DNA of 50,224 bases. It comes from a virus. Made by a program: the position numbers and the translations under genes. Location of the stretch: positions 1-50,224 of IMG/VR virus record IMGVR_UViG_3300010354_000132. One strand, given 5' to 3'. How positions within the stretch are numbered: the stretch's first letter is position 1; each line of letters begins with the position of its first letter. The notes beneath the pieces were generated by a model that made no database searches, was not told the DNA's origin, and saw only the letters and a program-made list of their open reading frames with translations. This document shows, piece by piece, positions 10,195 through 43,400 of this stretch.

Positions 10195-12525
10195 ATGACA
10201 TCTAATTTTGAACAAAGAAGACGCAATCCGCCGGCCTCATCCGGTCCCTATATCGCAGAAATAACTAGTCATTTGGATCCTATCTATATGGGAAGACTGG
10301 AAGTTAGTTTAATTAAAAATTTACCAAATAGGATTAAAGAACAGTCTGAAACATATATAGCAAATTATTGTAGTCCATTTATGGGGTCAACTGATATTAG
10401 ATTTGAAGGAAACAATTCTAGTAATTTTAACGATGTTCAAAAAAGTTATGGTTTTTGGATGGTACCTCCTGATGTAGGAACAAGAGTTCTAGTTTTATTC
10501 ATAGACGGAGATCCTAATCAATGCTATTGGTTTGGATGTATTCAAGATCCTTTTCAGAATCATATGATACCCGGAATAGCCGCTAGTAGGGAAGCAGCAT
10601 TAACAGCAGAACAAAGGAGAAAATACGGAGTTGATTATGTTCCTGTCGCTGAGGTACATAAAACAAGTATTAAAGAAGGAGCCACTCCTATGGGTAAGCC
10701 TAAGCCTGTACATCCCTTCGCTGATAGGCTTATGAATCAGGGCTTGCTGAAAGACACAGTTAGGGGAGTTACAAATTCTAGCGCAAGAAGAGAAGTACCA
10801 AGTCATGTTTTTGGGATATCAACACCTGGACCTATAGATGCTAGCCCGAGTGGAAAACGAGGAAAAATCGGATATGGAGACGGAACTCCTGCTCCTGTAA
10901 GTAGACTAGGGGGTAGTTCGTTTGTAATGGATGATGGTGACATAAGTGGACAGAATGAATTAATGAGATTGAGAACTAGGACCGGCCACCAACTGCTGCT
11001 TCATAATAGTCAGGATTTAATTTACATAGGTAACAGTAGAGGAACTACTTGGATAGAATTTACAAGTAATGGAAAAATAGATATTTTTTCGCAGGATAGT
11101 ATTAGTATCCATTCAGAACAAGATTTTAATTTTAGAGCAGATAGAGATATTAACTTTGAAGCAGGGAGAAATATACATATTCGATCTGGAAAGAATATGG
11201 AAACGAATATAGGAGGTTACTACTATCTTACAGTAGATGATAAAAGCAAAATCTCCGTAGGGGGAACACAAGATTATTCTGTAGCGGAAACTGCTAAATT
11301 TACTGTAGGAAGTGATTATGAAATGCTGTTAGGTAAAAATTTTGTAGTCAGTGCTAACGGCGGTCTAGATCTAAGCGGTGAAACTCATATAAAACTAGGT
11401 AGCGCTGGTAATTTATCTATGGGTACGAATGCTAAAATTATAGTTACTGGAAATAGAGTAGATATAAATGGTCCTATCGCACCTGCTCCTGCAACAGCAA
11501 GTCAAGCAGAAGTTCCGCCTGACCTGCCTCTTTTTACCTTGCCTAACAGAAAGAAAAAAGAAGGATGGGAAGATTCGAGATTTTATAAAGCAGATGATCT
11601 TAAGAGTATAATGCAACGTGTTCCTACACATGAGCCTTATGATCAGCATGAAAATATTAACCCACAGCAATTCACGCCAGAAGCCACAGACGTTACTTTG
11701 GCAGATAGGTCGAAAACTGGAGTAGCACCTAATTCTGCTACTAAAGAAGGAGGAGCAAGTGAACCTCAGCAGTCTGCTAACCAGCCAGAAGTAACTCCGG
11801 GAACATGTAAACCAGAGTTCGCTAAGGACATTAATAATAGTTCAGCACAAGCCGGTATTGCTGCTATAAAGGCAGCATGTAGTAAATTAGGGTTAACTAG
11901 TCCATATGCGGTCGCTGCTTTGTTAGGTATAGCAGGTGGCGAATGTCAATGGAAATTAGTTGAAGAAAGTTTCAAATATAGTGCTCCTAGATTATTACAG
12001 GTATTTCCTAGTGTATTCAAAGGAGATCAAGCATTGGCACAACAATACGCATCAAATCCTAGCCAACTTCCGGAATTTCTTTACGGGTCAAATACTGCTA
12101 AAGGTAAAGGCTTAGGTAATACACAGTCAGGTGATGGGGCTAAGTTTATAGGTAGAGGATATATTCAACTCACAGGAAGATCTAATTATACTAGATATAG
12201 TCAACTACTTTACGATAAGAGATTGGCATCTACTCCTACAAGTTTAGTGGATAATCCTGCTTTGTTAAACACCCCAGAGATTGCTGCTCAAGTAAGTGCT
12301 CTTTATATGTTAGATAGATGTAAGGTTTCTCAAACAGATCCTGGATATTTTGAAGCAGCATGTAAGGCTGTTGGCTTTAATACTCCTGACATTAAGGCTA
12401 GAAAGAAAGGATACTATGAATGTTTCTTGGCCCAATTACAGGGTACAAATCTTAGTAGTGGTACAGGAGGAATTGTTACTGATTCTTCTGGCAATCCTAT
12501 AAGAACAGGTTCAGCAGGTCCATAA
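10195..12525 (+). CDS. 5: gp5-like tail spike with C-terminal GH19-type lysozyme
   Basis: A 776-residue baseplate needle protein. Residues about 17-125 are the OB-fold domain shared with gp5/VgrG (IAEITSHLDPIYMGRLEV, GFWMVPPDVGTRVLVLFIDG, YWFGCIQDPFQNHM). Residues about 260-425 are short repeats with alternating hydrophobics (SISIHSEQDFNFRADRDINF), the triple-stranded beta-helix. After a Pro/Thr-rich linker, residues about 550-745 form a chitinase-class-I/GH19-like muramidase: GIAGGECQWKLVEES places a catalytic Glu near 583, and FIGRGYIQLTGRSNYTRYS near 650 is the family hallmark. In T4 the lysozyme lies between OB fold and helix and is a different family, so the architecture is rearranged here. 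It would cut peptidoglycan during injection. Confidence 0.88.
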   Translation: MTSNFEQRRRNPPASSGPYIAEITSHLDPIYMGRLEVSLIKNLPNRIKEQSETYIANYCSPFMGSTDIRFEGNNSSNFNDVQKSYGFWMVPPDVGTRVLVLFIDGDPNQCYWFGCIQDPFQNHMIPGIAASREAALTAEQRRKYGVDYVPVAEVHKTSIKEGATPMGKPKPVHPFADRLMNQGLLKDTVRGVTNSSARREVPSHVFGISTPGPIDASPSGKRGKIGYGDGTPAPVSRLGGSSFVMDDGDISGQNELMRLRTRTGHQLLLHNSQDLIYIGNSRGTTWIEFTSNGKIDIFSQDSISIHSEQDFNFRADRDINFEAGRNIHIRSGKNMETNIGGYYYLTVDDKSKISVGGTQDYSVAETAKFTVGSDYEMLLGKNFVVSANGGLDLSGETHIKLGSAGNLSMGTNAKIIVTGNRVDINGPIAPAPATASQAEVPPDLPLFTLPNRKKKEGWEDSRFYKADDLKSIMQRVPTHEPYDQHENINPQQFTPEATDVTLADRSKTGVAPNSATKEGGASEPQQSANQPEVTPGTCKPEFAKDINNSSAQAGIAAIKAACSKLGLTSPYAVAALLGIAGGECQWKLVEESFKYSAPRLLQVFPSVFKGDQALAQQYASNPSQLPEFLYGSNTAKGKGLGNTQSGDGAKFIGRGYIQLTGRSNYTRYSQLLYDKRLASTPTSLVDNPALLNTPEIAAQVSALYMLDRCKVSQTDPGYFEAACKAVGFNTPDIKARKKGYYECFLAQLQGTNLSSGTGGIVTDSSGNPIRTGSAGP

Positions 12526-12532
12526 ATATACT

Positions 12533-12970
12533 ATGCCTTTCAAAAATTTAGAATTAAGTTCAACAGGTTATACTGTTCAACGCGAAACAGTTAAAGACCA
12601 TACCTATAAAGGTTTTAGCACTATAGATCCCTATAATAGTGCCAGTAAATTATATGATTTTAATTTAATCAAACAAAATATCATTAATCATTTTAATACA
12701 CGCAAGGGCGAACGTGTTATGAATCCCACATTTGGTACAATAATATGGGATTTAATTATGGAACCGTTGACACCGCAGGTTAATGATTTGCTTACGAATG
12801 ATATCAAAGAAATCTGTAATTTTGACCCAAGAGTAACACCCCTTGAAATTAAAATAACAGAATACGACCAAGGATACCTAGTAGAAATATCTTTATTAAT
12901 GAAAAGTACAAACGAAACTTCTACTTTGAGACTGGCTTTTGATCAAAAAATAGGACTAAGGGTACAATAA
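12533..12970 (+). CDS. 25: gp25 baseplate wedge protein
   Basis: A 145-residue member of the GPW/gp25 family, the sheath-initiating wedge protein. The core reads IINHFNTRKGERVMNPTFGT, then IIWDLIMEPL, then DPRVTPLEIKITEYDQGYLVEIS. The Asn-Pro-x-Phe-Gly and the late acidic strand are the conserved parts. Length is close to T4 gp25 (132). It sits between gp5 and gp6, a common order in marine T4-like phages. The ribosome site is weak: AGG lies far upstream. Confidence 0.93.
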   Translation: MPFKNLELSSTGYTVQRETVKDHTYKGFSTIDPYNSASKLYDFNLIKQNIINHFNTRKGERVMNPTFGTIIWDLIMEPLTPQVNDLLTNDIKEICNFDPRVTPLEIKITEYDQGYLVEISLLMKSTNETSTLRLAFDQKIGLRVQ

Positions 12971-13018: not shown

Positions 13019-16000
13019 ATGATTCCTTCAACTACCAGCAAATTATTAGTCAGTGAAGATTGGAAAAAACTCTATCAATCGTTTAGAAATGCCGACTTTA
13101 AAAGTTATGATTTCGAAACATTGAGAAGAACAATGATTCAGTACCTTCAGGAAAATTTTCCTGAAGATTTCAATGATTATATTGAGTCTAGCGAATATAT
13201 TGCTCTTATTGATTTAATTGCTTTTATAGGTCAAAATTTAAGTTTTAGAATTGATCTAAATGCCAGAGAAAATTTTCTAGAAACAGCAGAACGCAGAGAT
13301 AGTATTCTAAGATTAGCGCAGTTGATAAGTTACTATCCTTCAAGGAATTTACCTGCTAATGGTCTTTTAAAAGTAGTATCAATATCTACCACTGATAATG
13401 TATTCGATTTAAATGGTGTAAATCTTGCAGAAACAACAATTAGTTGGAATGATTCTGTAAACCCAGATTGGTATCAACAATTTATTACCATATTAAATTC
13501 TGCTACAACCTCTGTATTTGGAAAATCCAGTTCTAAGGGCACCATTGATGGAATTTTAACAGAACAATATCGTGTTAATAGCAGTAATATTGATACTCCT
13601 ATTTTCAATTTCAACAAGGCAATTAACGGAACCAATATGAGTTTTGAGGTAGTTCCTTGTTCATTTTCTGGAAAAGACTATATTTACGAAGAAGCACCTA
13701 TTCCGGGTAATTCTTTTAGTTTTCTATATCGAAACGACAATCAAGGTACATCTAGTATCAATACAGGATTCTTCTGCCATTTTAGGCAAGGAACTTTGAG
13801 TTTGAGCAGTTTTAACATAAACAACCCTGTACCTAATGAAATAATAGGTGTTAATACTCCTGACATAAACAATTCAGATGTGTGGTTATGGCAATTAAAC
13901 AAACAAGGGAATTTTGATACCTTGTGGACTAGGGTACCTGCCGTAACAGGTAATAATATTATCTACAATAGTTTACAAAAAAATCTTAAAACTATATATT
14001 CTATTACTTCTAGGACTAGTGATCAAATTGATATAAATTTTGCAGACGGTGTCTTTGGAGATCTACCTAAAGGTCAGTTTAGATTATTTTATAGACAAAG
14101 TAACGGATTATCCTATGTCATCAAACCAGAACAGTTAAGTGGTATAGTAATTAGTATCCCCTATCTTAATAAGTCAGGTCAGCAAAATACTCTTCAAATG
14201 ACTTTGAGTTTACAATATGCTGTAAACAATTCAAGTGGTGCAGAAACTAATAGCCAAATTCAATTTAGAGCCCCGCAAACCTACTATCTACAAAATAGAA
14301 TGATTACAGGAGAGGATTATAATATCGCTCCGTTAAATGCCAGTTCTGATATATTAAAGGTTAAGAGTGTTAATAGGGTCTCTAGTGGTGTAAGTAAGTA
14401 TTTTGACCTATCTGATGTTTCGGGTAGATATAGTAAAACAAATATTTTCGGCAATGACGGTGTAATATATAAAGAAGAAAGTGAATCAACCAGCCAGTTT
14501 GAATATGTAAGCAAAACACAGGTGTTTTCATATGTTAAAAACACATTGGCTGAAGTGGTTAATAGTCAACCACTTAGGGCATTTTACTTTGATAAATTTT
14601 CTAAACCTAATTTAGAAAGTTTAAATCTTAGATGGAAAGAAGTCAATAAAACTCCGGGACAAAGTAGAGGATACTTTTACAACGAAAATGGTTCATTTCC
14701 TGTAGGATCTAACTATACTGACAACAATTTGAAATATGTTCAACCTGGATCTATAGTAAAATTTTTAGCACCTAATGGGAAATATTTTGATGAGAGTAAT
14801 AATTTACAATTTATTGATTCATCAAAATTACAGACATTAGGGTTTGATATTTTAGATTTTGTTAATACAACAAAAGGATCATATAATTATGATTCTTATT
14901 ATATTAAGACCCTTAATATTCTTCCTTTATATACATCTAACAATGAATTCACTACTAACATAGGTATTAAGTATGGATTATATAGAGATCCAGATTATGA
15001 TGGTTTAGCCTATTGGGTCAAAGAAGCAATAAACAATGGTAAATCAATAGAGGACATTGATTTTAGAACAGGATTTTTTACAGCCGCTTTACAATATGCT
15101 TCGGGCGATAGGGCAAATGTTAAACTTAAGCCTTATTTTACTGCCAGCGGTACACAGGCAACTAAAACTCCTTATCAATTAACTCAAATTACTAATTCAA
15201 TTCCTATAGGCGGAAGATCCTATATATGGGCAACTGTTAGTCAAGTTATCGATAATGGAGCAGATGTTCTTATAGATGGTACAGGGCCTATAATTTTTAA
15301 TACAAGAATACCTAGCGATGCAGTTCCTGCTGAAGTTCTGCCTAAGTATCCTGACATTCTACCATATAGCATTGAAACAGAAATCGTTAATACTTGTTCT
15401 CTATTTAAGAATTTTGGTCTTACACTGAATGAAGAAACAAGAGAATGGGACTTTATAACAAGTGCTAACTTAAACACAGTAGATGAATTCAGTTTAGGTT
15501 TTCAAAATTCACAAGGCAGTCAATCTTTAGATTCAAGTTGGTTAATATCATTTGTTTGGACAGGTATAAACTATCAAATAAGATATAGAATACTTAATTA
15601 CATTTTTGAAAGTGTTCAAGAAACTTCATTTTATGTAGACAAAACCACAAAGAATTATGACTATACTAATAATACTGTAGTTAAGGATAAAATTAGTATT
15701 CTAAATATAAACACTACCCCAGACGCCAGTGCTTTCAATGCTAAAACCCTTGGTACCAGTAATGAATGGCAAATAGATGATGTTGTGATTGAAGAGGATG
15801 GTTTTATTAAACCAAATCGAGTTAAGGTAAGTTTACTTAACTTTAACAATCAAGGAATATTTTCTAATCCTAATAGTTTTCAAGAAATTGTCGGGGATTT
15901 TTATGTATTTTTTAAGAGGACTGATGACGGTTTGACTTATAATATTACTGACACTGATATTACAATATTAGACAGTGAAGATTATTTTACAGACATAATG

Positions 16001-16747
16001 AAAGTAGACGGGTCATTATATTTCTTTAAAGATACAGAGGTAGTCAAGTATTGGTCCAACATAAATTCTGCTTTGATCTTTTCTGATTTGTATTTTGGAA
16101 GAAAGGGTAGAAGAAATTTAAAATTCCAATATGTACATAATAGTGGAGATCAGAGAAGATTAGATCCTAGCAAATCTAACATAATAGATATATATTTGCT
16201 TACACGAAATTATGATACAAGTTTTAGAAGTTACATTATTGGCAATTTATCTACAGAACCTTTAGTGCCTACCAGTAGTAGTTTGGAACAAAATTATAGC
16301 CAATACCTAGAACCTATTAAGGCCATGAGCGATGAGATTATTTTCCATCCGGTAAAATATAAAATTTTATTTGGTGATAAGGCGCCTTTAACTTTACAAT
16401 GTACATTTAAGGCTGTAAGAAATTCTAGCAGGATCACTAATGATAATAATCTTAAGACAAGAATTCTTAGTGCCATTGATGATTTCTTTAGTTTAGAAAA
16501 TTGGGAATTCGGTCAAACGTTCTATTTCGGAGAACTTAGTGCATATGTAATGAATTTACTCAGTCCTGATATTAATAATTTTATATTGGTTCCAAAAAAT
16601 AACATAGGATTTGGCAGTTTATTAGAAGTAACTTGCTTATCCAATGAACTATTTGTGAATGGGGCAGGTATAGATAACATTGAAATTATCGATGCTATCA
16701 CAGCAGCCCAATTGCAAACTAATTCTACTATTGTAACATCTGTATAA
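13019..16747 (+). CDS. 6: gp6 baseplate wedge protein with inserted DUF4214-like module
   Basis: A 1242-residue protein. The N-terminus is clearly gp6: DWKKLYQSFRNADFKSYDF, YLQENFPEDFNDYIESSEY, NLSFRIDLNARENFLETAE and LAQLISYYPSRNLPANG (about 12-115). gp6 dimers join wedges into the baseplate ring. T4 gp6 is 660 residues. Much of the excess lies between KFLAPNGKYF (about 590) and YIWATVSQVIDNGADV (about 735). Within this, residues about 645-690 (GLYRDPDYDGLAYWV, then SIEDIDFRTGFFTAA) match the DUF4214 pattern. The C-terminal half keeps the baseplate-J-like segments (FHPVKYKILFGD, LENWEFGQTFYFGELSAYV). No Shine-Dalgarno is visible before the ATG. Confidence 0.92.
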   Translation: MIPSTTSKLLVSEDWKKLYQSFRNADFKSYDFETLRRTMIQYLQENFPEDFNDYIESSEYIALIDLIAFIGQNLSFRIDLNARENFLETAERRDSILRLAQLISYYPSRNLPANGLLKVVSISTTDNVFDLNGVNLAETTISWNDSVNPDWYQQFITILNSATTSVFGKSSSKGTIDGILTEQYRVNSSNIDTPIFNFNKAINGTNMSFEVVPCSFSGKDYIYEEAPIPGNSFSFLYRNDNQGTSSINTGFFCHFRQGTLSLSSFNINNPVPNEIIGVNTPDINNSDVWLWQLNKQGNFDTLWTRVPAVTGNNIIYNSLQKNLKTIYSITSRTSDQIDINFADGVFGDLPKGQFRLFYRQSNGLSYVIKPEQLSGIVISIPYLNKSGQQNTLQMTLSLQYAVNNSSGAETNSQIQFRAPQTYYLQNRMITGEDYNIAPLNASSDILKVKSVNRVSSGVSKYFDLSDVSGRYSKTNIFGNDGVIYKEESESTSQFEYVSKTQVFSYVKNTLAEVVNSQPLRAFYFDKFSKPNLESLNLRWKEVNKTPGQSRGYFYNENGSFPVGSNYTDNNLKYVQPGSIVKFLAPNGKYFDESNNLQFIDSSKLQTLGFDILDFVNTTKGSYNYDSYYIKTLNILPLYTSNNEFTTNIGIKYGLYRDPDYDGLAYWVKEAINNGKSIEDIDFRTGFFTAALQYASGDRANVKLKPYFTASGTQATKTPYQLTQITNSIPIGGRSYIWATVSQVIDNGADVLIDGTGPIIFNTRIPSDAVPAEVLPKYPDILPYSIETEIVNTCSLFKNFGLTLNEETREWDFITSANLNTVDEFSLGFQNSQGSQSLDSSWLISFVWTGINYQIRYRILNYIFESVQETSFYVDKTTKNYDYTNNTVVKDKISILNINTTPDASAFNAKTLGTSNEWQIDDVVIEEDGFIKPNRVKVSLLNFNNQGIFSNPNSFQEIVGDFYVFFKRTDDGLTYNITDTDITILDSEDYFTDIMKVDGSLYFFKDTEVVKYWSNINSALIFSDLYFGRKGRRNLKFQYVHNSGDQRRLDPSKSNIIDIYLLTRNYDTSFRSYIIGNLSTEPLVPTSSSLEQNYSQYLEPIKAMSDEIIFHPVKYKILFGDKAPLTLQCTFKAVRNSSRITNDNNLKTRILSAIDDFFSLENWEFGQTFYFGELSAYVMNLLSPDINNFILVPKNNIGFGSLLEVTCLSNELFVNGAGIDNIEIIDAITAAQLQTNSTIVTSV

Positions 16748-16748
16748 T

Positions 16749-19700
16749 ATGGCCGAACAAAATAAAAAAACAGTAAACTTTCTTCCTGATTATCTTAAAA
16801 CAGTTAAGAATGAAAAATTTCTATCGGCCACATTAGATCAATTAATACAATCTCCAGATCTAGAAAGAGTAGATGGTTATGTAGGATCAAAAATAACTAG
16901 CCTTTACAATCCTGTAAAAGATACATATATTTCAGAAACAGAATCTATAAGATCAAACTATCAAGTAGAACCAGGTCTAGTCTTCAAAAATGCATCTGGT
17001 GAAATAAATGATGTAAAAGGTTATATAGACTTATTAAGTGCCATTAAAAATAATGGTGGACAAGTAAATGATCTAGATGAATTACTTAGAACAAAACATT
17101 ACAGTTTTGATCCTTTAATCGATTGGGACAAACTTATTAATTATGATCAATACTATTGGTTACCAAATGGTCCAAGTGCTATTGTTTTAGATTTAGAAAC
17201 TAGTCCATTTACTGAAATTATTGGCAATATGTCTTATGATTTGCCAAATGGCCCTCCATTGAGCAACGGTATGAAACTCATGTTTACACAGACATGGGTA
17301 CAAGGGCAGAATTCATTAACCAGTTCTACTCAATATCTTGTAGAAGGAGTAGGTAAGTCTATCAAATTGATTGATCTAAAGGACCTTGAAGTATCCGGGG
17401 ATATTTCATCGGCATTCAATGAAACTTTTGATAATACCGATTTTGATACTGTAGGATTTGACAGTGATAAAAAGACAGCAAGTGTGCCTGAATATTATAC
17501 CATTAATAGAGCAAGTGCTGACCTTAATCCGTGGACCAGATATAATAGATGGTTTCATAAAAGTGTAATAGAAGCGACCGCAGAATATAATAAAGAAGAT
17601 TTATCAATAGATTACGAAAGCAGGGCCAAAAGACCTATCCTTGAATATAAAGCAGATCTTCAATTGTTTAATTTTGGATCAAAGTCAATTCAAAATATTG
17701 ATGTAATTGATGATTCAACAGTTGAACCTTTCTCCGAAATTGAAGGTTCAGTTGGATATTATATAGACCAAGTGCTATTACAATCTGGATATAGGGTAAT
17801 ATTTAATAATGCCAATGATCCTGAAGTTAGGTCTAAGGTTTATGTTGTTAATTTTACAACTACAACAAATACTATTGAATTAGTTTCAAGTAATGAATTT
17901 ATAAATGATTTAGATAGCGTATCTGTGAACAATGGAACTAAGTATTCTGGCAAAAGTTTTTATTTTAAGGAATCTAGTTTCAAGTGGATTTACGCTCAAC
18001 AACACACTTACCTTAATCAACCTCCGTTATTTGATGTTTTAGACGAAACAGGGACAAGTGTTTCTGAAAGTGGATTTGAAAATAATTTTAAAGGTACTAG
18101 AATTTTTGGTTATGAGGAAACTACTGGTACACCTGATTCTGTGTTAGGGGTTGCCATAAAACAAACAACCACACCTTTAGGAATTGGTAGTTTCGTTTTT
18201 AAAACATATTTCAATACTGATTCTTTTGATTATGTAAAAAATAATATATCCTATAAAACTAAAATTTCGGGATATTATCTAAAGATTAATAATCCCGATA
18301 ATGGTACATATTTTTTGAATAATATATGGGTAAGTGGAATTTGGTCACAAACTACAGAGTTGGACCTTAATGGCGATTATTTTTATATAGATAATTTTAC
18401 CGTAATCCCAGAAATACCATCTCCTATTATTGAAACTAAATTATTATCTGAAAATACATCGTCTGTTAAAGTTCAAAGTTTAAGAAATGTATCTACAGTT
18501 ACGTCAGTAGATACTTTTGTTAATAATATTTTGACAAGTTCAACGTTTACAATTACAAATAACGAAATAATAGTTAATTTTAATTCTACCCTAAGCCAAA
18601 ATAGTTTTGTAAGTTTGAATATTGTAGGAGAAGGGAAGTTAGATGAGGAATTGGGATATTACTCAACTCCTTTAAGTTTAAACAGCAATCCTATTAATGA
18701 AGATCTTGTAAGTCTCACATTAACGCAATTAAGCGATCATTTAAAGAGTATGGTATCTAGAGATTCTAGATTTGTTGGAAATTTTCCTGGAACTAGTAAT
18801 TTAAGAGATCTTAATAATTATTCCATACAAGGTGACAAGTTAATTGTAAATGATAATCCTATTTCCTTTGCCTTAATGTTTTTGACAAAGAAAGAACATG
18901 ACTTAATCGAATCTTTAAGGTTTGGAGCCAATCAGTATAATCAATGGAAATATAATTTTATTAGAGAATTATCTAATATTGATACTCAGTCTTCTCCTAG
19001 AGAAATGTTAGATGCTGTTCTACTTAATATGAGCCAGTCAAAGTCTAATAGAGATTCATATTACAAGTCGGATATGTTAGGTTATGGCTCTGATAAAACA
19101 GTAAGAACTATTACAGTAACTAACTTGTCGTATAGTGAATACTATCTTGGTGAAGAGTTTGATCTAAATAGTCTGAGTTACAGATCTATTTTGGTATATA
19201 AGAACGGCATTCAACTAATTCATGGTTTAAATTATGAATTTGTTTTATCTAGTAATTCGGTTAAATTTTTAACAAGTCTGGATGTTAATGATCTAATAGA
19301 ATTCGTTGTATATAACACAACCGTAGGTTGTTACATTCCTCAAACACCTAGTAAATTAGGATTATATCCTGCATATACACCTTCTATAGTTAGTGACGGT
19401 AACTACGCAGGTAATCCTAAAGATGTGATCATTGGTCATGATGGTAGTAGAACTGCTGTGTTCAACGATTATAGAGATGATATAATTTTTGAATATGAGA
19501 AAAGAGTATATAATAATATAAAGGTAAAATATAATAGGAATTTATTTGATATATTTTCAATTTTACCAGGAATAAACAGAACAACTTCTGATTATGATCA
19601 ACTTTTTAATTCTCTATTAGAAAAAGAATACAGTAAATGGGCTGCAACTTATAATGTAGATGTTGTTTCAAATATAACATACGATCCTGCTAATTTTAAA

Positions 19701-22700
19701 ACATGGAACCTAACTGGTGGTAAAGAATCAAAATATAACAAGCCTATTAAAGGAACTATTCGTAGTGTAAACAAATATTATTTCGATAGTTTATCTATGG
19801 AAACAACTCCTTGGGAAATGTTAGGATTCCATGAAAAACCGTCTTGGTGGGAAGGGTTATATGGGCTACCTCCGTATTCATCAACGTTATCTTCTGTATG
19901 GCCTGACATAACTAACGGCTATATTGCTTCCGGCGAATATAAAGGAACATGGCCCAAATATGCTAGACCCCAATTCAATACATTATATAATCCAGTTGAT
20001 TTTGCAGGTGTTAATCAATGGTTAAATTATCTATCACTAAGTGGACCTTCTGATAGAAAGGCCGATTGGACTTTTGGTGATTATAGTCCTGCAGAGGTAG
20101 CCTTTAGAAATAGCAGTTTTTATCCATTTGCCTTAAGTGTGGTTGCATGTTTGCTTAAACCCGCAGATTATACATCTAAGTTATTTGATCTAAGTAGAGT
20201 TAAATTAAATTACCTAAAACAGGCTATTATATCTGATCAATATTGTTATCTAAATCCTAGAAAAGTGTTAGTAGAAGGAGTAAACACTGAACAAACTGCT
20301 GGATATATTAATTTAATTATAGAAAGAGGTGACAGACTATTTCAAGATTATAGAAATAGTCTAGCACAGGATCTAAGTTATTGTGACTTAAATCTACTTT
20401 ACAAAGTTGGTGGATTTACAAGTAAAGAAAAAATCCAACTTAAGATTGATGCAGTTGATCCAGAGTCTACCAGTCCAGGTGTAGTGATTCCCTATGAAGA
20501 TTATGAATTAAGGTTATCAACTAGTGTACCTATCAAATCTAGTAGAATATCAGGTATTATTGTTCAAAAGAAAAACGGTAAGTTTTTAATTAAAGGTTAT
20601 GATAGGCAGAATACTTATTTTACTGTTTATCAACCATTAAAAAATAATGTAATGAGTTCAATTACAGTTGGTGGGAAAACTGAACCTTACACTGTATGGC
20701 AACCTGTATTTTCTGACGGTAATGTAGGACTTACATCTATAGATATTGCTGGATCTAGTTCTGGCAAATTTTATAAGCAAGGTCAAATAGTTTTTTACAG
20801 TAACAAATATTATAGAGTTAAGGTTGCTCATAGTGCAGGAACTAAATTTAATTCAGAATATTTTCAACAATTGCCTGCACTACCTACTAAAGGTGGAGTT
20901 ACTGTAAGTACAACTAAAAAATTTGATACTTTGGAAACTAAGGTTCCTTACGGCACATTATTATCTAGTGTACAAGAAGTATATGATTTAATTATAGGAT
21001 ACGGAGCGTGGTTAGAAAGTCAAGGGTTTATATTTGATAAAAGTTTATCTGAATTAAATGAGATACTTAATTGGTATTTTACCGGTAAAGAGTTTTTATA
21101 TTGGAGTACGCAAAACTGGGCAGATGGAAATTTAATTACTCTTTCTCCTTTTGCTTCTTATCTAAAATATCAATCTAATAATTCTATAGTTGATAATTTA
21201 TTTTCAAAAGGATACGAATACAGTTTACAAAATGCAGATGGTTTATCTTTTCCTAAAGATGGATTTGACATTTATAGGTTTGATAACGCCTGTGTTATTG
21301 AAACTAAAAATACAGAAGATGGGATCTTTTTCGCAGTATTAAATTCTGTACAAAAAGAGCATGTAATTGTATTCAATAATACAACGGTGTTTAATGATAC
21401 AATTTTTGAAAAAGTTACAGGATATCGTCAAAAGCGTATCAAGTATACAGGTTTTAGAACTAAAAATTGGAATGGTGATTTAACTAGTCCTGGATTTGTC
21501 TATGATAATGTACAAATTGAAACATGGAAAGAAAACAAAAGTTACATTCCGGGATCGGTAGTGAGATTTAATGGGCAATATTTTCAGGCTAATCAATCTA
21601 TTGTAAATGAGATAGCATTTGACTTTCAAAAATGGACCTTTTTAAGTAAAAAACCAATTTCAGGTCTGTTGCCGAATTTTGATTACAAGATAAATCAGTT
21701 TGAGGATTTTTATAGTGTAGATATTGACAGTTTTGATACTAAACAACAAGAATTATCTCAACATCTTATAGGCTATACACCTAGACCGTACCTTAATAAG
21801 ATAATTATCGATCCAGTTGCTCAATATAAATTCTATCAAGGATTTATTAGAGAAAAAGGTACTAAGAATGTTATAGATAAGATTTTAAAAGTTAGCAACA
21901 ACGAAAATCAAGAATCTATAGATGTAAAAGAAGAATGGGCCATTAGGGTAGGAAGTTATGGTTCTGATCAAACTTTTAGTGAACTAGAGGTACAACTTAG
22001 GGAAGGGTTGAACATAGAAAACCCCTATGTTGTTAAATTTGGAAATACAAATCAAAATGAATCTAAGTTGATTCATTATGTACAACCTAGAGAAATTTTG
22101 ATCAAACCAGATAATTTTAATCCTTCATCTGTGTTTAAAAATAGAACTGGAACATATAATGACAGCGGTAACATATTATTAACTGCAGGTTATGTTCACC
22201 CTGATGATATAGATCTCACTGCCTACAATAAAAACAGTTTATTAGATATTGCCAATATTCAAAACCTAAAAAATGGTACAGTAATTTGGCTAGGATTTTT
22301 AGAAAACGGTGAATGGGACGTTTATAGGTATAATTCTCAGCAGGCCAAAGTAACTGGAGTTTTTGTAAGTAACCCAGGATCCTCTATTACTTTTGTAACA
22401 GATATTCATCATTCTTTAAAAGTGGGCGATATTATTTCTGTGGTTAGATTTAATAGGCAAGTTGATGGTGTTTATATTGTAAAGAATATTCCAAATATCA
22501 ATCAATTTGAAGTAGCATCTTCATTGGTTGGTATTATAAACGAATCTATTTTGACATTCGGAAGTATATTTAGATTTGAACCATCTAGAATAAGTTCGTT
22601 AGATAACTTTGTAGAATTAGAAAATCTGTTTAATTTACCATTTGGTTCTAAAGTTTGGATAGATAATGATGAAAATTCTAAATGGGCTGTGTATGAAAAA

Positions 22701-25700
22701 ACAGACAATTACAGTTCTAGTACAGAATTTAAATCTTTCTCCAAACCCCTAGGTCAAAATTACGGACGAAGCATTTACGCAAGAGATGATGATTTAACTG
22801 TATTAGTTTCATCTCCTGGATACCATGTTGCTGGTTCTTTGAATTATGGAAAGGTAAGTGTTTTTAGAAAAACTGCTAATACCCAAAATATAACTAATAA
22901 CTTTGATTATTTTTTAAATGCAGGACAAAATTATTGTGCAGTTAATACCACTACTGATTTCGGCTTCAGCCTTGTACACGACATTGGTAAAGATCTTTTT
23001 ATAGTTGGGGCTCCTGCTGCTTCGAATGTTAGAGCATCTATAGACAGTAATCAAAAAATTACAACTGCTACTAATGCTCTAAGTCCAAGAACTAATCAAA
23101 CTGAAGGTCTAGTTAAAATTAGCACAAGAAACCAGGCCAATGTTTCTGAAGTTGCTAAAGTGGTTATTGCTCAACCATTCACAAATACTACGACTATGCA
23201 GAATTCTAGATTCGGGCATAGCATTTACATCAATCAAGTTCCATCTACGTCTTCTACTACTGTGCTAATTGGTGCACCAGGTAATTCTGCTTATCAAAGT
23301 ACTGGATCTGTTTATGTCTATAAACTAAGTCTTCAAAATGGAAATGTTAATTTAGGATATTTTTATAATACCAGTACTGTAAATGTTCTAAGCACTACTA
23401 GTGTGGTTATGAATGCTGGTGCAAGATGGGGAGATTCTATAGCAGGATCTAAAACAGGAGATGTTATTGCAATCAGTGCTCCTAAATATTTTTATAGGGG
23501 TAACAAGGGTATTGTTCAACTTTTTGATAGCAATCTTAATTGGTTTCAAACATTGAACAGTCCATTCGGAAATGACGATCAGTTTGGATATTCTATTTCT
23601 GTAAGTAACTCTGGAACCTTTGTGTTTGTTAGTTCTATATTAAGCCAATCTACATTTGGAACAGAAGGCAAAGTTGCTGTTTATAAAAAGTTAGATAACC
23701 AACAACAATATTCATTAAGTCAAATCATAACCAATCCTATTAGAAATAGCGATTTGAAGTTTGGGGAATCTATTGCTATTAGTGAAGATGAGACTTCTTT
23801 GTATATTAGTTCTTTGGGTACAAACAAATCAGAATTTGTTAAATTCTATAAAAATAAAAATACAGAAGAACAGGAAACAACTTTTGATAGTGATAAAACT
23901 AGATTTGTTTCTAGTATAAAAGATTCTGGAACTGTACATGCCTATAGTAATTTTAATGGAAAATTTGTACAAGGATCTGAAATAGTTCCTGTAAATTTAG
24001 AACCAAATGGCAGGTATGGTTTATCCTTAGCAGCGACTAATAGGTCATTGTTTGTAGGAGCACCTCAATCTAAGGTTAAATCTTATACAAGTGATAATAG
24101 TAAATTTTATCAATTTAAATTATTAGGTAACACGAATATATGGAAAAAAATTAGATCTCAAGAATCATCTGTTGATATCGAATTGTTTAGAAGAATTAGT
24201 CTAATAGATAATCAGCAAGAAGAACTTATTGATTACTTGGATATATACGATCCTCTAAAAGGTAAAATTCCGGGAATAGCAGAGCAAGAATTAAATTACA
24301 AATTCGTTACAGATCCCGCAGTCTACTCAGTCGGTATGGCAGGTACTACTAATGATACACAAACAAATTGGATTGACGATCATGTAGGTGAGTTATGGTG
24401 GGATCTTAGTACGGCCAAATATGTATGGTATAACCAAGACAATGAAATATTTAAAAAGAACAATTGGGGTAAATTATTTCCGGGCGCCAGCATAGATATA
24501 TACGAGTGGGTCAAATCTGATCTTTTACCTAGCGAATGGGCAGTCCTTGCAGATACCGCTGGCGGACTAGCCATTGGCATTAGCGGACAACCAAAATATC
24601 CAGATAATAGTGTATTAAGCGTAAAGCAGGTTTTCAATACCGTTACGGGAAGTTTTGAAAATGTTTACTTCTTTTGGGTAAAAAATAAAACCATATTACC
24701 TAAGAATGCAAATAGAAGATTAACTGCCTATCAAGTCGCAGCACTAATTTCTGATCCATTAGCGAATGGAGTAAAATTTATAGAATTTTTAAGCGACAAT
24801 TCTTTTGCCTTAGGTAATGTTCAAAATAGGTTAATAGGCAATAGAATTTCTGTTAATATAGCCTACGATAAAATTAACAATAAGATTCCATTACACACTG
24901 AATGGATGTTAATCGGTGAAGGTGATTCTACAACATTACCTAATGATCAGATTAATAAAAAGTTAATTGATAGTTTATTGGGTAGAGATAATCTAGGAAA
25001 TAAAGTACCTGATCCATCTTTATCATTTAGGAATAGATACGGGCTTGGTATTAGACCTCAACAAACCTTATTTGCGGACAGATTCGCTGCATTAAGGAAT
25101 ATCATTGATTTTGCTAATTCTGTTTTAGAAAAAAATTTAATTACGGGAATTTATAATTTTCAAAATCTTAATAGTGTAGATCCTATTCCAGATGATAGTC
25201 AAGGAGAATACGATTTTCTTTTAACAGATGTAGAAGAAATTACTGCTATTGATACAGAAATTTTCGTTAAGGCGCAGGTATCGTGTACTGTAAAAGATGG
25301 AATTATAGTTTCTACCAATATCATTAACGCTGGATACGGGTATGCTACTGCTCCTAAAATAACGATTACTCCTAATCCAAATAACAAGGCGGTGATATCT
25401 ACTATAATTGATAATCAAGGCAGAGTAATCAGATGTGTTATAGAGAATGCAGGATTTAATTTTAGTAAATCACCTAGTCTTGCTGTTAGAAATCATAGTG
25501 CTTTGGTAAGTGTAGATAGTAATTCTAACGGAAGATGGGCGCTTTATGAATTTAATTATAATGGTCAATGGAATAAGATAAAGACTCAATTATTCAATAC
25601 CACATTGTATTGGGATTATTTAGACTGGAGTTCTGAATCTTTTGATTCTTTAAAAACACCTTCTATTATTATTGATAATGTTTACCAATTATCTAGTCTA

Positions 25701-28700
25701 AGTTTAGAAGTTAGTAATTATGTTAAAGTTAAAAATATTGGAGATGGAAGAGCAGTTATTTTAGAACGTGTAGTTTCTAATGGTAACTTCTCAAATGAAT
25801 TTGATATTGTTTTCAGTCAGAACGGCACATTGAAAATTTCTGATAATCTGTGGAACAGTGAAAATTCTAAATTTACTTTTGCCAGTTCCTCATTAGATGA
25901 AACCTTATATGATCAACTTCCTGATATAGAATTGTACAACATATTGATAGCCTTGAAAGATGATATATTCACTAATGAATTAAAGGTAAATTGGAATCTT
26001 CTATTTTTTAAAGCGGTTAAGTATGCTCTAACTGAGCAAAAAATTCTAGATTGGGCGTTTAAAACAAGTTACATTAATATAACAAATAATTCCGGAGAAC
26101 TTGACCAGCCATTTAATTTTAGAATTGATAATAACCAATATTATCAAGATTATTTCACTGAGGTTAAACCTTATAGGACTAAGATTAGAAACTATACTGC
26201 TGGATATTCTTATATTGAAGATGCTAGATTACTAACATCTGATTTTGATGTTTCACCTTATTATAATCCATTATCTGAAAAATATGAATCTTTAAATATT
26301 CCATATACCGGACAGTCATCTTTATTAAGTCAATATCCGTATAAAACTTGGTACGATAATTCTACATATTATGTCAGTGAAATAGTTGTAGGTTATGGAG
26401 GAAAGGGATATACATCAGTACCTGAAGTTTATGTTTATAGTAATGGAAATGTTGTTCGTACTGCTACAGCAAAGGCATATTTAAAAAATAATAAAGTATG
26501 GAAAATTATTGTTACAGATCAAGGGGAAGGTTATTACGATACACCTACAATTAGTTTAAGAGGCGGTAATCCTATAGAGGAAGCCAAGGCCTCGGCTATA
26601 ATCAAAAATGATACAACTAGAAAGAATATCATTACTATGAAGTTTGACAGGTATTCTCGTAAGGGTGAAATAGAGAATACAGAAGTAACTTATACAATAA
26701 TTTGCGATGGAATCAACAGCGAATTTGAGTTACCTTACCTTGCCAATACAGATAAGTTAACAATATTTCCGACCTTAGACAGAAAACTAATTCTGTCTTC
26801 CGATTACAAAATAGTAAATTTCAGTAAAACTGATAATACACTACAGAAAAATTACAGCAAATTTGTATTTGTAGATAGAATTCCAAAATCAGGGCAGTTG
26901 TTAAAAATTGTCTATCAAAAAGACTTGTCGTATTATAATGCTATTGATAGAATTGAAAACTTTTATCAACCTACAGAAACTATGGCAGGTAAAGATCTAA
27001 ACTTATTAATGACAGGTCTAGAATATCCTAATCTAAGAATAAAAGGAATGGATTTTTCCTATTCGTCTGCTTATAATATAGGTACCACAGGTTCCTACGG
27101 TATGAGTCTAGGGTGGGGTGATTTAACAAATAGTTATTCTAAATCTAGACTTGTAGAACCTGCTACAATGTCTACTAACACACTATATCTTAACACAGTA
27201 GAAGATATTCGCATAGGACATTCTTTAAACTTTTTAAATACTTCTCAGTTCATTGTTCGGACCGATACAGTAGTTCAAGCGATTGATATTAGTAATAATA
27301 TTGTTACAATCAGTAGACCAACTTATACAGCATCGGTGGCAATATCTACCACTACTGCAATAGGTACTGAAATTTTAGTATCTACAGTAAATGAATTTAG
27401 GGGTGCTATAAGACAGAATGATACTGTTGAACTTACTGGATTTTCTCCTAACGAGTTTAATGGAACATATACCATAACTACCATTTATGACAATAATTCA
27501 TTTATTGTTACAGCTTCACAGGTTTTAAGCACTACAACTTCTATAGTAGGGTCTGGTACAATAATAGTCTATAGTTTGCTTCAAAATATTGATGTTAGAA
27601 ATAGAAAAATTGGAGAATATTCATTCCATGTAGGTCCATGTAAATTTCCGGTTTATACAATAGAAAAGAGTATGGGATTTATTTCAGAAGGTCGAACAGT
27701 TACATTTACTGTAGATGGAACTGATGTTTTGTTTGGACAAGGTAGAACCTTCGAGTATGAAATTACCGGTACAAATATATTGGCCAGTGATTTTACAGAT
27801 AATACTCTTACAGGATTGGCTAGTGTATTATCTTTACCTATCAACTTTACAAAAACTTTAGCAACGGATAATGATTTAGGTGTAGAGACATTTACAGTTA
27901 ATATTTTTACATATTTTACCAGCGGCACAGCGAATACATCTGTTGTTACTAGCACCAGTGTAACAATTCTACCGTATGATCCTGCTTTGCCAACTGTGTA
28001 CACAATTACAGCCAGTACATCCACAGTCCAAGAAGGCGAGTCTGTAACACTTACTCTGGATGGGACTAATGTTGATTTTGGCGATACAGGAAGAGCATTT
28101 AGATTAACGGCAACCGGTACAAATATAACAGCAGGTGATCTTATCGCAAATACACTAACAAGCGAAGTGGTTATACTAGATCAGTTACCTATTACAGTTA
28201 GTGCCGGCTTTGCACTAGACAATCTAATTGAAGGCATAGAAAGAGTTTATTTCAATATACAAACATGGTTAAATGGCGCTGCTGAGAATACTGCTACTGT
28301 GGCTAATACGTATGTTGAAATAATTGATGTTGAACAATCTGCTACATATGAGTTTTTTGATACGCCGTCTACTATAAGTGAAGGATCTACACTGATATTG
28401 AAGTTAAGAACACAGAACAAGTCTGTGGGATCTCAAGTAGGATTTAGTCTAAGTACTCAGACAGGTGATTTTACTGTAGCAGATTTAACAACTTCTACAT
28501 TGTTTGGTAAATTTATTATGACAGACGGTGCTCCTACATATCCAGGATACCAAATTGGTACATACACATATGTGGTTGCGCAGGATGCAGCATCTACAGG
28601 TTACGAGATAGCAGAAAAGTTTCGTGTAACTATAAATGAAAATACAGCAACATATATTGATATAACAATAACAGATCAGATACAAAGTTCATTTGGCCAA

Positions 28701-29291
28701 TATGGAAGTAAATTAAGTTCGTTCACTTCTAACTCTTATCCGGCTTTTACACAAGTTAGAATTAAATCTACAGGAACATTTGATCTACAAATAGAGCAGG
28801 GGCAATATGCTGTTTATCCTTCAGGATTTTCTCCAGCGTCTATACTTACAGATAAATGGACAGATAATATTACCGGCACATCCGGTTATTATGTAAGAGC
28901 AAGAATGGAGCCGACAGGCAGTCAGTGGTTAGGAAACATTCAGTTTACTGGCCCGGGCTTCGCCACTGTAATTAACGCTGCCAGTTTGACAGCCTCAAAT
29001 TATGCGCCAGTTCAGGGCAATTGGGAACTAATTAGTGCTGCAGATAGTTACACCAATGCTAATGGTAACTATGGTTGGTATTGTTTTGCTCAATATGATC
29101 CTATTCAAGATGTTAGTGCTTATGCTGAGTTTACTATTGTTATTGAAATTAGTAAAACGAATGGTGGAGATATTATTGCCTCGGGTAGTTATCTTTGTTC
29201 ATTAGGATCAGTTGGTACAATTAGTGTACCTCCTGGTAGAATTACAGGTGGTAGCAGCGGCAATACCTTATATCCAAATCAATTAAATTAA
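16749..29291 (+). CDS. giant (4180-residue) baseplate wedge/fibre protein, gp7 position
   Basis: The largest gene here. The N-terminus (VNFLPDYLKTVKNEKFLS, then PLIDWDKLINYDQYYWLPNG) matches the conserved start of large structural proteins that follow gp6 in marine T4-like phages; by position it replaces T4 gp7. Two short Tyr/Gly modules resembling carbohydrate-binding strands lie near 1337 (YKQGQIVFYSNKYYRV) and 1597 (YIPGSVVRFNGQYFQA). Residues 2000-2455 hold seven FG-GAP-like repeats. GYxxxP repeats (AGYGYATAPKITI, GGKGYTSVPEVYV, QGEGYYDTPTISL) lie near 2850-3260. Three Calx-beta-like repeats fill 3634-3980, and a Gly-rich domain ends the protein. It has no frameshift. It probably forms the outer baseplate and a host- or surface-contacting arm; the exact role is inferred. 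Confidence 0.8.
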   Translation: MAEQNKKTVNFLPDYLKTVKNEKFLSATLDQLIQSPDLERVDGYVGSKITSLYNPVKDTYISETESIRSNYQVEPGLVFKNASGEINDVKGYIDLLSAIKNNGGQVNDLDELLRTKHYSFDPLIDWDKLINYDQYYWLPNGPSAIVLDLETSPFTEIIGNMSYDLPNGPPLSNGMKLMFTQTWVQGQNSLTSSTQYLVEGVGKSIKLIDLKDLEVSGDISSAFNETFDNTDFDTVGFDSDKKTASVPEYYTINRASADLNPWTRYNRWFHKSVIEATAEYNKEDLSIDYESRAKRPILEYKADLQLFNFGSKSIQNIDVIDDSTVEPFSEIEGSVGYYIDQVLLQSGYRVIFNNANDPEVRSKVYVVNFTTTTNTIELVSSNEFINDLDSVSVNNGTKYSGKSFYFKESSFKWIYAQQHTYLNQPPLFDVLDETGTSVSESGFENNFKGTRIFGYEETTGTPDSVLGVAIKQTTTPLGIGSFVFKTYFNTDSFDYVKNNISYKTKISGYYLKINNPDNGTYFLNNIWVSGIWSQTTELDLNGDYFYIDNFTVIPEIPSPIIETKLLSENTSSVKVQSLRNVSTVTSVDTFVNNILTSSTFTITNNEIIVNFNSTLSQNSFVSLNIVGEGKLDEELGYYSTPLSLNSNPINEDLVSLTLTQLSDHLKSMVSRDSRFVGNFPGTSNLRDLNNYSIQGDKLIVNDNPISFALMFLTKKEHDLIESLRFGANQYNQWKYNFIRELSNIDTQSSPREMLDAVLLNMSQSKSNRDSYYKSDMLGYGSDKTVRTITVTNLSYSEYYLGEEFDLNSLSYRSILVYKNGIQLIHGLNYEFVLSSNSVKFLTSLDVNDLIEFVVYNTTVGCYIPQTPSKLGLYPAYTPSIVSDGNYAGNPKDVIIGHDGSRTAVFNDYRDDIIFEYEKRVYNNIKVKYNRNLFDIFSILPGINRTTSDYDQLFNSLLEKEYSKWAATYNVDVVSNITYDPANFKTWNLTGGKESKYNKPIKGTIRSVNKYYFDSLSMETTPWEMLGFHEKPSWWEGLYGLPPYSSTLSSVWPDITNGYIASGEYKGTWPKYARPQFNTLYNPVDFAGVNQWLNYLSLSGPSDRKADWTFGDYSPAEVAFRNSSFYPFALSVVACLLKPADYTSKLFDLSRVKLNYLKQAIISDQYCYLNPRKVLVEGVNTEQTAGYINLIIERGDRLFQDYRNSLAQDLSYCDLNLLYKVGGFTSKEKIQLKIDAVDPESTSPGVVIPYEDYELRLSTSVPIKSSRISGIIVQKKNGKFLIKGYDRQNTYFTVYQPLKNNVMSSITVGGKTEPYTVWQPVFSDGNVGLTSIDIAGSSSGKFYKQGQIVFYSNKYYRVKVAHSAGTKFNSEYFQQLPALPTKGGVTVSTTKKFDTLETKVPYGTLLSSVQEVYDLIIGYGAWLESQGFIFDKSLSELNEILNWYFTGKEFLYWSTQNWADGNLITLSPFASYLKYQSNNSIVDNLFSKGYEYSLQNADGLSFPKDGFDIYRFDNACVIETKNTEDGIFFAVLNSVQKEHVIVFNNTTVFNDTIFEKVTGYRQKRIKYTGFRTKNWNGDLTSPGFVYDNVQIETWKENKSYIPGSVVRFNGQYFQANQSIVNEIAFDFQKWTFLSKKPISGLLPNFDYKINQFEDFYSVDIDSFDTKQQELSQHLIGYTPRPYLNKIIIDPVAQYKFYQGFIREKGTKNVIDKILKVSNNENQESIDVKEEWAIRVGSYGSDQTFSELEVQLREGLNIENPYVVKFGNTNQNESKLIHYVQPREILIKPDNFNPSSVFKNRTGTYNDSGNILLTAGYVHPDDIDLTAYNKNSLLDIANIQNLKNGTVIWLGFLENGEWDVYRYNSQQAKVTGVFVSNPGSSITFVTDIHHSLKVGDIISVVRFNRQVDGVYIVKNIPNINQFEVASSLVGIINESILTFGSIFRFEPSRISSLDNFVELENLFNLPFGSKVWIDNDENSKWAVYEKTDNYSSSTEFKSFSKPLGQNYGRSIYARDDDLTVLVSSPGYHVAGSLNYGKVSVFRKTANTQNITNNFDYFLNAGQNYCAVNTTTDFGFSLVHDIGKDLFIVGAPAASNVRASIDSNQKITTATNALSPRTNQTEGLVKISTRNQANVSEVAKVVIAQPFTNTTTMQNSRFGHSIYINQVPSTSSTTVLIGAPGNSAYQSTGSVYVYKLSLQNGNVNLGYFYNTSTVNVLSTTSVVMNAGARWGDSIAGSKTGDVIAISAPKYFYRGNKGIVQLFDSNLNWFQTLNSPFGNDDQFGYSISVSNSGTFVFVSSILSQSTFGTEGKVAVYKKLDNQQQYSLSQIITNPIRNSDLKFGESIAISEDETSLYISSLGTNKSEFVKFYKNKNTEEQETTFDSDKTRFVSSIKDSGTVHAYSNFNGKFVQGSEIVPVNLEPNGRYGLSLAATNRSLFVGAPQSKVKSYTSDNSKFYQFKLLGNTNIWKKIRSQESSVDIELFRRISLIDNQQEELIDYLDIYDPLKGKIPGIAEQELNYKFVTDPAVYSVGMAGTTNDTQTNWIDDHVGELWWDLSTAKYVWYNQDNEIFKKNNWGKLFPGASIDIYEWVKSDLLPSEWAVLADTAGGLAIGISGQPKYPDNSVLSVKQVFNTVTGSFENVYFFWVKNKTILPKNANRRLTAYQVAALISDPLANGVKFIEFLSDNSFALGNVQNRLIGNRISVNIAYDKINNKIPLHTEWMLIGEGDSTTLPNDQINKKLIDSLLGRDNLGNKVPDPSLSFRNRYGLGIRPQQTLFADRFAALRNIIDFANSVLEKNLITGIYNFQNLNSVDPIPDDSQGEYDFLLTDVEEITAIDTEIFVKAQVSCTVKDGIIVSTNIINAGYGYATAPKITITPNPNNKAVISTIIDNQGRVIRCVIENAGFNFSKSPSLAVRNHSALVSVDSNSNGRWALYEFNYNGQWNKIKTQLFNTTLYWDYLDWSSESFDSLKTPSIIIDNVYQLSSLSLEVSNYVKVKNIGDGRAVILERVVSNGNFSNEFDIVFSQNGTLKISDNLWNSENSKFTFASSSLDETLYDQLPDIELYNILIALKDDIFTNELKVNWNLLFFKAVKYALTEQKILDWAFKTSYINITNNSGELDQPFNFRIDNNQYYQDYFTEVKPYRTKIRNYTAGYSYIEDARLLTSDFDVSPYYNPLSEKYESLNIPYTGQSSLLSQYPYKTWYDNSTYYVSEIVVGYGGKGYTSVPEVYVYSNGNVVRTATAKAYLKNNKVWKIIVTDQGEGYYDTPTISLRGGNPIEEAKASAIIKNDTTRKNIITMKFDRYSRKGEIENTEVTYTIICDGINSEFELPYLANTDKLTIFPTLDRKLILSSDYKIVNFSKTDNTLQKNYSKFVFVDRIPKSGQLLKIVYQKDLSYYNAIDRIENFYQPTETMAGKDLNLLMTGLEYPNLRIKGMDFSYSSAYNIGTTGSYGMSLGWGDLTNSYSKSRLVEPATMSTNTLYLNTVEDIRIGHSLNFLNTSQFIVRTDTVVQAIDISNNIVTISRPTYTASVAISTTTAIGTEILVSTVNEFRGAIRQNDTVELTGFSPNEFNGTYTITTIYDNNSFIVTASQVLSTTTSIVGSGTIIVYSLLQNIDVRNRKIGEYSFHVGPCKFPVYTIEKSMGFISEGRTVTFTVDGTDVLFGQGRTFEYEITGTNILASDFTDNTLTGLASVLSLPINFTKTLATDNDLGVETFTVNIFTYFTSGTANTSVVTSTSVTILPYDPALPTVYTITASTSTVQEGESVTLTLDGTNVDFGDTGRAFRLTATGTNITAGDLIANTLTSEVVILDQLPITVSAGFALDNLIEGIERVYFNIQTWLNGAAENTATVANTYVEIIDVEQSATYEFFDTPSTISEGSTLILKLRTQNKSVGSQVGFSLSTQTGDFTVADLTTSTLFGKFIMTDGAPTYPGYQIGTYTYVVAQDAASTGYEIAEKFRVTINENTATYIDITITDQIQSSFGQYGSKLSSFTSNSYPAFTQVRIKSTGTFDLQIEQGQYAVYPSGFSPASILTDKWTDNITGTSGYYVRARMEPTGSQWLGNIQFTGPGFATVINAASLTASNYAPVQGNWELISAADSYTNANGNYGWYCFAQYDPIQDVSAYAEFTIVIEISKTNGGDIIASGSYLCSLGSVGTISVPPGRITGGSSGNTLYPNQLN
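22745..24125 (+). repeat. seven FG-GAP-like beta-propeller repeats inside the giant protein
   Basis: Seven units of roughly 60-85 residues share a pattern of FGxSI, a hydrophobic strand, GAP and then GxVxVY. Examples begin at about residues 2001 (NYGRSIYARDDD), 2069 (DFGFSLVHD, IVGAPAAS), 2152 (RFGHSIYIN, LIGAPGNS, GSVYVYKL), 2224 (RWGDSIAGS, AISAPKYF), 2276 (QFGYSISVS, GKVAVYKK), 2335 (KFGESIAIS) and 2420 (RYGLSLAAT, FVGAPQSK). Seven is the usual blade number of integrin-alpha-type propellers. Confidence 0.75.
27650..28690 (+). repeat. three Calx-beta-like repeats near the C-terminus of the giant protein
   Basis: Three units of about 115 residues, each starting with a SEG or QEG turn (GFISEGRTVTFTVDGT, STVQEGESVTLTLDGT, STISEGSTLILKL), then ITGTNILASDFTDNTLTG-like and E(x)FTVNI-like strands. 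This is the Calx-beta/adhesin-type repeat common in marine phage and bacterial surface proteins. The first two are more alike than the third. Confidence 0.75.
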
Positions 29292-43371: not shown

Positions 43372-43400
43372 TTGTTTCTCCTTTGTTTCGCTATACACAT

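Follow-up and report, generated by a model that had tools for sequence, protein, structure and literature searches.

The giant baseplate-region protein encoded in this stretch of DNA carries a seven-bladed FG-GAP beta-propeller, predicted to have the fold of the animal integrin alpha chain and inserted as a unit at a variable site, and on balance we favour the reading that this ring is an exchangeable, baseplate-mounted adhesion scaffold, i.e. a rigid platform that would be exposed and make contact with the surface of the host. The window (the whole stretch analysed, 50,224 nucleotides) is a fragment of an environmental IMG/VR virus record and probably belongs to a jumbo phage, since the contigs of relatives reach 353 kb. 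The best-studied changes of host contact in phages occur through tail fibres and receptor-binding tips; here a large environmental clade of jumbo phages has an animal-integrin fold inside a giant baseplate-region protein, and its natural versions with, without and with a swapped propeller make it testable whether the propeller serves in host contact and whether the modules nested in it track the host. The propeller fold, viral FG-GAP repeats and the giant virion family are already known. According to the open literature searched, where no paper linking an FG-GAP propeller to a baseplate wedge was found, what is new is that the ring lies within the giant protein, is exchanged at a single hairpin and serves to carry further domains.

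A giant gene in the baseplate cluster

The gene lies in a cluster of baseplate genes, which also includes a gp53-like gene upstream of it, and is directly followed by structural and putative tail-fibre genes. The features of the cluster and of the giant gene outside the propeller are:

10195..12525, + strand: gp5-like baseplate hub and tail lysozyme gene (profile matches)
12533..12970, + strand: small baseplate wedge gene at the gp25 position (phrog_261 and phrog_43, baseplate wedge)
13019..16747, + strand: gp6-like baseplate wedge gene, directly upstream of the giant gene (phrog_10646, E 6e-277; phrog_219, E 2.6e-16)
16749..29291, + strand: giant gene of the phrog_10938 family (E 6.2e-292), directly 3' of gp6, for a putative virion protein of 4180 aa
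20760..20843, + strand: CBM_5_12 carbohydrate-binding module, residues 1338-1365 (Pfam E 8.8e-10 over two stretches)
20931..21998, + strand: conserved anchor that precedes the variable site, residues 1395-1750 (alignment A2)
24156..25118, + strand: conserved anchor that follows the variable site, residues 2470-2790 (alignment A1)
27654..28682, + strand: three tandem repeats of ~110 aa, residues 3636-3978, Calx-beta-like by eye (self-comparison)

As the initial annotation had read it, the frame is open over its full length, with 4180 codons and no internal stop. The phrog_10938 match runs along the conserved anchors; the family includes PA5oct gp355, Atu_ph07 gp180, CBB gp236, Munch 262 and proteins of Phosso and SCTP-2, and its members span 3300-4550 aa in cultured relatives and reach about 5300 aa in environmental ones. 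The window protein is homologous to them over most of its length and occupies the same slot: in PA5oct, Atu_ph07, Phosso, Munch and CBB the homologue follows a gp6-like gene with the gene order of the window (that of SCTP-2 is preceded by a large hypothetical gene). It differs in its propeller, absent at this site from all cultured members examined. PA5oct gp355 bears an ESI-MS/MS note in its annotation, which makes phrog_10938 a virion family, and gene order and homology suggest a place in the virion for the window protein as well.

The same annotation had seen a wedge protein at the place of T4 gp7. Its position, directly after gene 6 in the baseplate cluster, does agree with that of gp7, but the protein is four times longer, belongs to phrog_10938 instead and has no detectable gp7 homology: 12 segments, represented by up to 136 sequences, gave nothing credible against T4 gp7 alone or a seven-phage gp7 family. 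With none of the 12 segments resembling gp7 while the control alignment of the gp6-like protein with T4 gp6 was positive (E 0.0014), identity as a gp7 homologue was rejected as unsupported.

Conservation is uneven along the protein. The upstream anchor is 27-33% identical to cultured jumbo phages and 45-68% to environmental relatives, and the C-terminal part is hypervariable, with identities down to 9-15%. Its tandem-repeat region, in which repeats 1 and 2 share 41% identity (E 5.7e-21) and repeat 3 is weak, forms a second variable zone. A second CBM_5_12 copy was placed by eye at about residues 1600-1650, a stretch mostly missing from cultured relatives. Elsewhere in the window, the gp5-like protein ends in an endolysin/chitinase-like domain, with several lysis PHROGs matching over residues 545-746, and the minus strand holds a QueE-like radical SAM gene (47462-48316) and an HNH endonuclease-family gene (42106-43398).

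The seven-bladed ring

Blade limits were drawn as follows, each FG unit starting at the residue in brackets:

22752..24158, + strand: seven-bladed FG-GAP (integrin-type) beta-propeller, residues 2002-2470 (repeats, Pfam, profile, model)
22752..22949, + strand: blade 1 (YG at 2005), from FG repeats and model strands
22950..23201, + strand: blade 2 (FG at 2071); relatives have nested inserts, CBM_5_12 copies included, in its long 2-3 loop
23202..23417, + strand: blade 3 (FG at 2155); relatives carry nested inserts most often in its 3-4 hairpin
23418..23573, + strand: blade 4 (WG at 2227), from FG repeats and model strands
23574..23750, + strand: blade 5 (FG at 2279); its 3-4 hairpin takes inserts of up to ~445 aa in relatives
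23751..24005, + strand: blade 6 (FG at 2338), from FG repeats and model strands
24006..24158, + strand: blade 7 (YG at 2423); the second host-hairpin strand of the relative L198 aligns with its last strand, IWKKIRS

Seven FG-GAP units had been noticed beforehand at about residues 2000-2455, a count that was right, with limits correct to within ~15 residues. A leave-one-out profile scored six of the seven blades above all 500 of their own shuffles (9.7-23.5 bits for the real blades, 7.0-13.4 for the best shuffles), and a search of residues 1990-2490 alone matched Pfam FG-GAP_2 (PF14312) at E 1.9e-6, with 28.4 bits against a curated cut-off of 23; at E 0.01 or better the same family was matched by 62 of 73 relatives. 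An alignment of these 73 relatives (A3) was used both for a profile search of the PDB, in which integrin alpha chains ranked best (alpha-4, E 3.6e-19), and for AlphaFold2, which returned seven blades of four main strands each (pLDDT 90.9, pTM 0.89). The single window sequence found no PDB match, the integrins emerging only with the family profile. The 50 PDB matches listed by Foldseek were integrin entries without exception (best E 3.7e-14), with target-normalised TM-scores of up to 0.71 and with the propellers matched over their whole length, from which the ring is judged to be closed. Structure prediction of this region, the check named in advance, therefore bears out the proposed seven-bladed, integrin-type propeller.

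A reading of the FG repeats as chance similarity or as generic beta-sandwiches, with no closed propeller, is hardly credible. Such a view could appeal to the whole 4180-aa protein, which does not reach FG-GAP_2 in Pfam, and to blade 2, whose long loop goes with the one failure in the single-sequence shuffle test; it is already contradicted by the high-confidence model of seven four-stranded blades, by the integrins ranking best in both profile and Foldseek searches, and by the blade profile, which found no match in seven propeller-less relatives.

The resemblance to the integrin alpha propeller (alpha-4, 3v4p; alpha-5, 4wk2) covers the seven four-stranded blades and the FG and GAP motifs. The window ring nevertheless shares only ~10-16% identity with it and lacks its calcium motif (DxDxDG in the strand 1-2 loops), found in none of the window blades and in 8 of 910 blades of the family; calcium-dependent binding of the integrin type was thus rejected. 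Furthermore, the window protein is a putative virion protein with neither integrin legs nor a beta partner: Pfam detected no thigh or calf domain and no membrane anchor, and the segments beside the ring are the phrog_10938 anchors. Although the propeller stands above the curated cut-off of the FG-GAP_2 repeats, it differs from these in lying within a hairpin of a giant baseplate-region protein and in having loops that hold nested domains in relatives. A tblastn search of cultured phages with the window propeller gave no match. A fold similar to the ring is predicted for the Atu_ph07 'hemagglutinin' (A0A2L0UZX4), a virion protein of cyanophage S-TIM5 (H6WG31) and giant-virus FG-GAP proteins; the first two, however, are short separate proteins (~400 aa) outside a giant baseplate protein.

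One hairpin with exchangeable occupants

The site of insertion is delimited by a naturally empty version of it in L198, a close environmental relative with 57% identity to the window in the anchor:

22650..22706, + strand: N-terminal arm of the host hairpin, immediately preceding the propeller; residues 1968-1986, KVWIDNDENSKWAVYEK (L198 empty-site alignment)

Where L198 reads NKWAVYKK-GVYSWAQYRTQ, the window reads SKWAVYEK-[about 475 aa]-TNIWKKIRSQ, so that the ring is exactly absent from L198 and the inserted stretch corresponds to about residues 1987-2461. The arm is modelled with strands at 1968-1973 and 1980-1984, and the empty-site stretch of L198 is modelled as a two-strand hairpin; the L198 anchor-region model is modest (pLDDT 78.8, pTM 0.57), was used for this local hairpin only and retrieved weak, low-TM matches from the PDB (best E 1.5e-4, TM ~0.1, phage endosialidases). 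As modelled, then, a single beta-hairpin holds the propeller in its turn, which agrees with the suggestion that a propeller had been inserted into a larger baseplate-region protein. In a tree of 149 inserts (FastTree, local support values only) L198 is nested within the propeller-bearing clade with full local support, and its state is therefore best read as loss of the ring, which is thus not essential in every lineage.

Other relatives fill the site differently. The segment between the A2 and A1 anchors measures 223 residues in Munch and CBB, 338 in PA5oct and 526 in SCTP-2, the last being LamG-like by eye, with no Pfam support; in Atu_ph07 and Phosso it comprises ~1550 residues rich in GxGY repeats, and the environmental loci L244-L250 have segments of the GxGY type, with no blades. 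Stretches of GxGY...AP repeats replace the propeller in L002, L003 and L244-L250, the whole insert being about 690-1550 aa long, and similar motifs are also present elsewhere in the window protein. The site is minimal in CBB, Munch and L198, and holds a propeller in 142 unique environmental inserts, a frequency that describes a sample chosen by similarity to the window (at most 80 loci per scan), not the population. The propeller, absent from L198 and from the cultured relatives tested, is accordingly no generic part of all homologues, as had been anticipated, nor is it peculiar to this window.

The number of blades is strictly bounded. By profile, no propeller-bearing insert exceeded seven and 95 had all seven; in those counted with fewer, the gaps fall where diverged or interrupted blades lie. 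An eight-bladed ring in L235-L237, each with eight blade matches, was considered and rejected, two of the matches arising from one blade divided by a CBM-like insert.

Nested domains, selection and the role of the ring

In relatives the propeller itself receives large inserts at set loops: in blade 2 the 2-3 loop, in blades 3 and 5 the 3-4 hairpin, and also loops in blades 6 and 7. These reach about 700 aa; blade 3 exceeds its median length by more than 60 aa in 19 of the 95 seven-bladed relatives. The tree shows at least 13 gains or losses of large nested inserts on well-supported branches, the class being defined by a total insert of at least 780 aa, with length as a proxy. Such domains spliced into the propeller recall the alpha-I domain of integrins, likewise a domain spliced into a propeller. 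Some are CBM_5_12-like; Pfam assigned most to no family, save for CBM_5_12 and a weak DUF4214 match, and an adhesive function is therefore a guess for most of them. The notion of the propeller as a scaffold, voiced at the outset, gains support from these relatives, in which its loops accommodate additional domains. That the propeller binds sugar, proposed along with it, was not borne out, the sole recognisable sugar-binding modules being the separate CBM_5_12 copies.

Ring dN/dS ranged from 0.07 to 0.33 in close informative pairs, the near-identical L108/L110 left out, and was well below 1 in every pair except L108/L110, whose counts are tiny. In most pairs it exceeded that of both flanking anchors, commonly two-fold or more, and it was similar to that of the variable C-terminal part. 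The ring is thus maintained by purifying selection, yet changes faster than the anchors in most pairs, a difference that could in part reflect relaxed constraint rather than adaptation. This selection, the strict ceiling of seven blades in 142 inserts and the one near-universal occupant in a deep clade make it improbable that the ring is a mere spacer or decoration with no dedicated role at an insertion-tolerant site, even though that site does hold very different occupants or none.

About 140 related phages have the same propeller as a platform with other domains plugged into it, which makes it a probable changeable device for contact with the host. Fold, blade count, limits of the insertion, variation of the site, nesting and selection were all established computationally; beyond these, we infer that the ring is exposed at the surface and binds a glycan or protein of the host. 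In a giant protein of a jumbo T4-like phage, the conserved anchors would probably fix the protein in the baseplate, the hairpin with the seven-bladed propeller in its turn would present the ring, projecting from it, and the loops of the ring, together with the domains spliced into them in relatives, would constitute a fast-changing surface meeting the host. Alternatively, the ring could serve protein-protein docking within the virion, where tail fibres or neighbouring wedges, for example, would attach to it, with no contact with the host. Propellers are frequent interaction hubs, putative tail-fibre and other structural genes lie directly downstream, and the ring's retention by nearly every sampled member of a large clade would fit a structural part; we nonetheless regard such an assembly role as rather unlikely, given that L198 lost the ring within that very clade, that cultured relatives assemble without it, and that nested inserts of up to ~700 aa and a faster change than the flanks are unlike a typical buried interface.

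Within the favoured reading of the ring as a platform for host contact, it is tempting to speculate on a display in two tiers, in which the propeller, exchangeable but always at the same hairpin, would form the first tier and offer its blade hairpins as docking sites for second-tier modules (70-aa repeats, CBMs and other beta domains), which would be reshuffled by intragenic recombination, including copying between blades 3 and 5, and so alter what the phage binds; we hold this for plausible, if slightly short of an even chance. The 70-aa repeat (AP-LYPTE--IRYWM--GL) looks helical, matches no Pfam family and lies within the propeller of L113, L179, L108, L127 and others. Among the loci fetched it occurs only inside propeller hairpins of the giant gene, and in even number (2, 4, 6 or 8), except for a third, partial match in L011. 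The insert in blade 5 of L011 and L120 also contains, adjoining the helical repeats, a beta-rich domain that is PA14-like by eye, which Pfam did not confirm.

Between L108 and L110, which are near-identical phages, the main difference is a single tract of the blade-3 module; over ~100 nt this tract of L108 matches its own blade-5 module with one mismatch, at a place where L110 differs. This suggests copying between blades 3 and 5 by gene conversion inside the gene, with an assembly chimera as another possible source of the pattern. In L180 the blade-3 and blade-5 modules have the same position as in L108 and L110.
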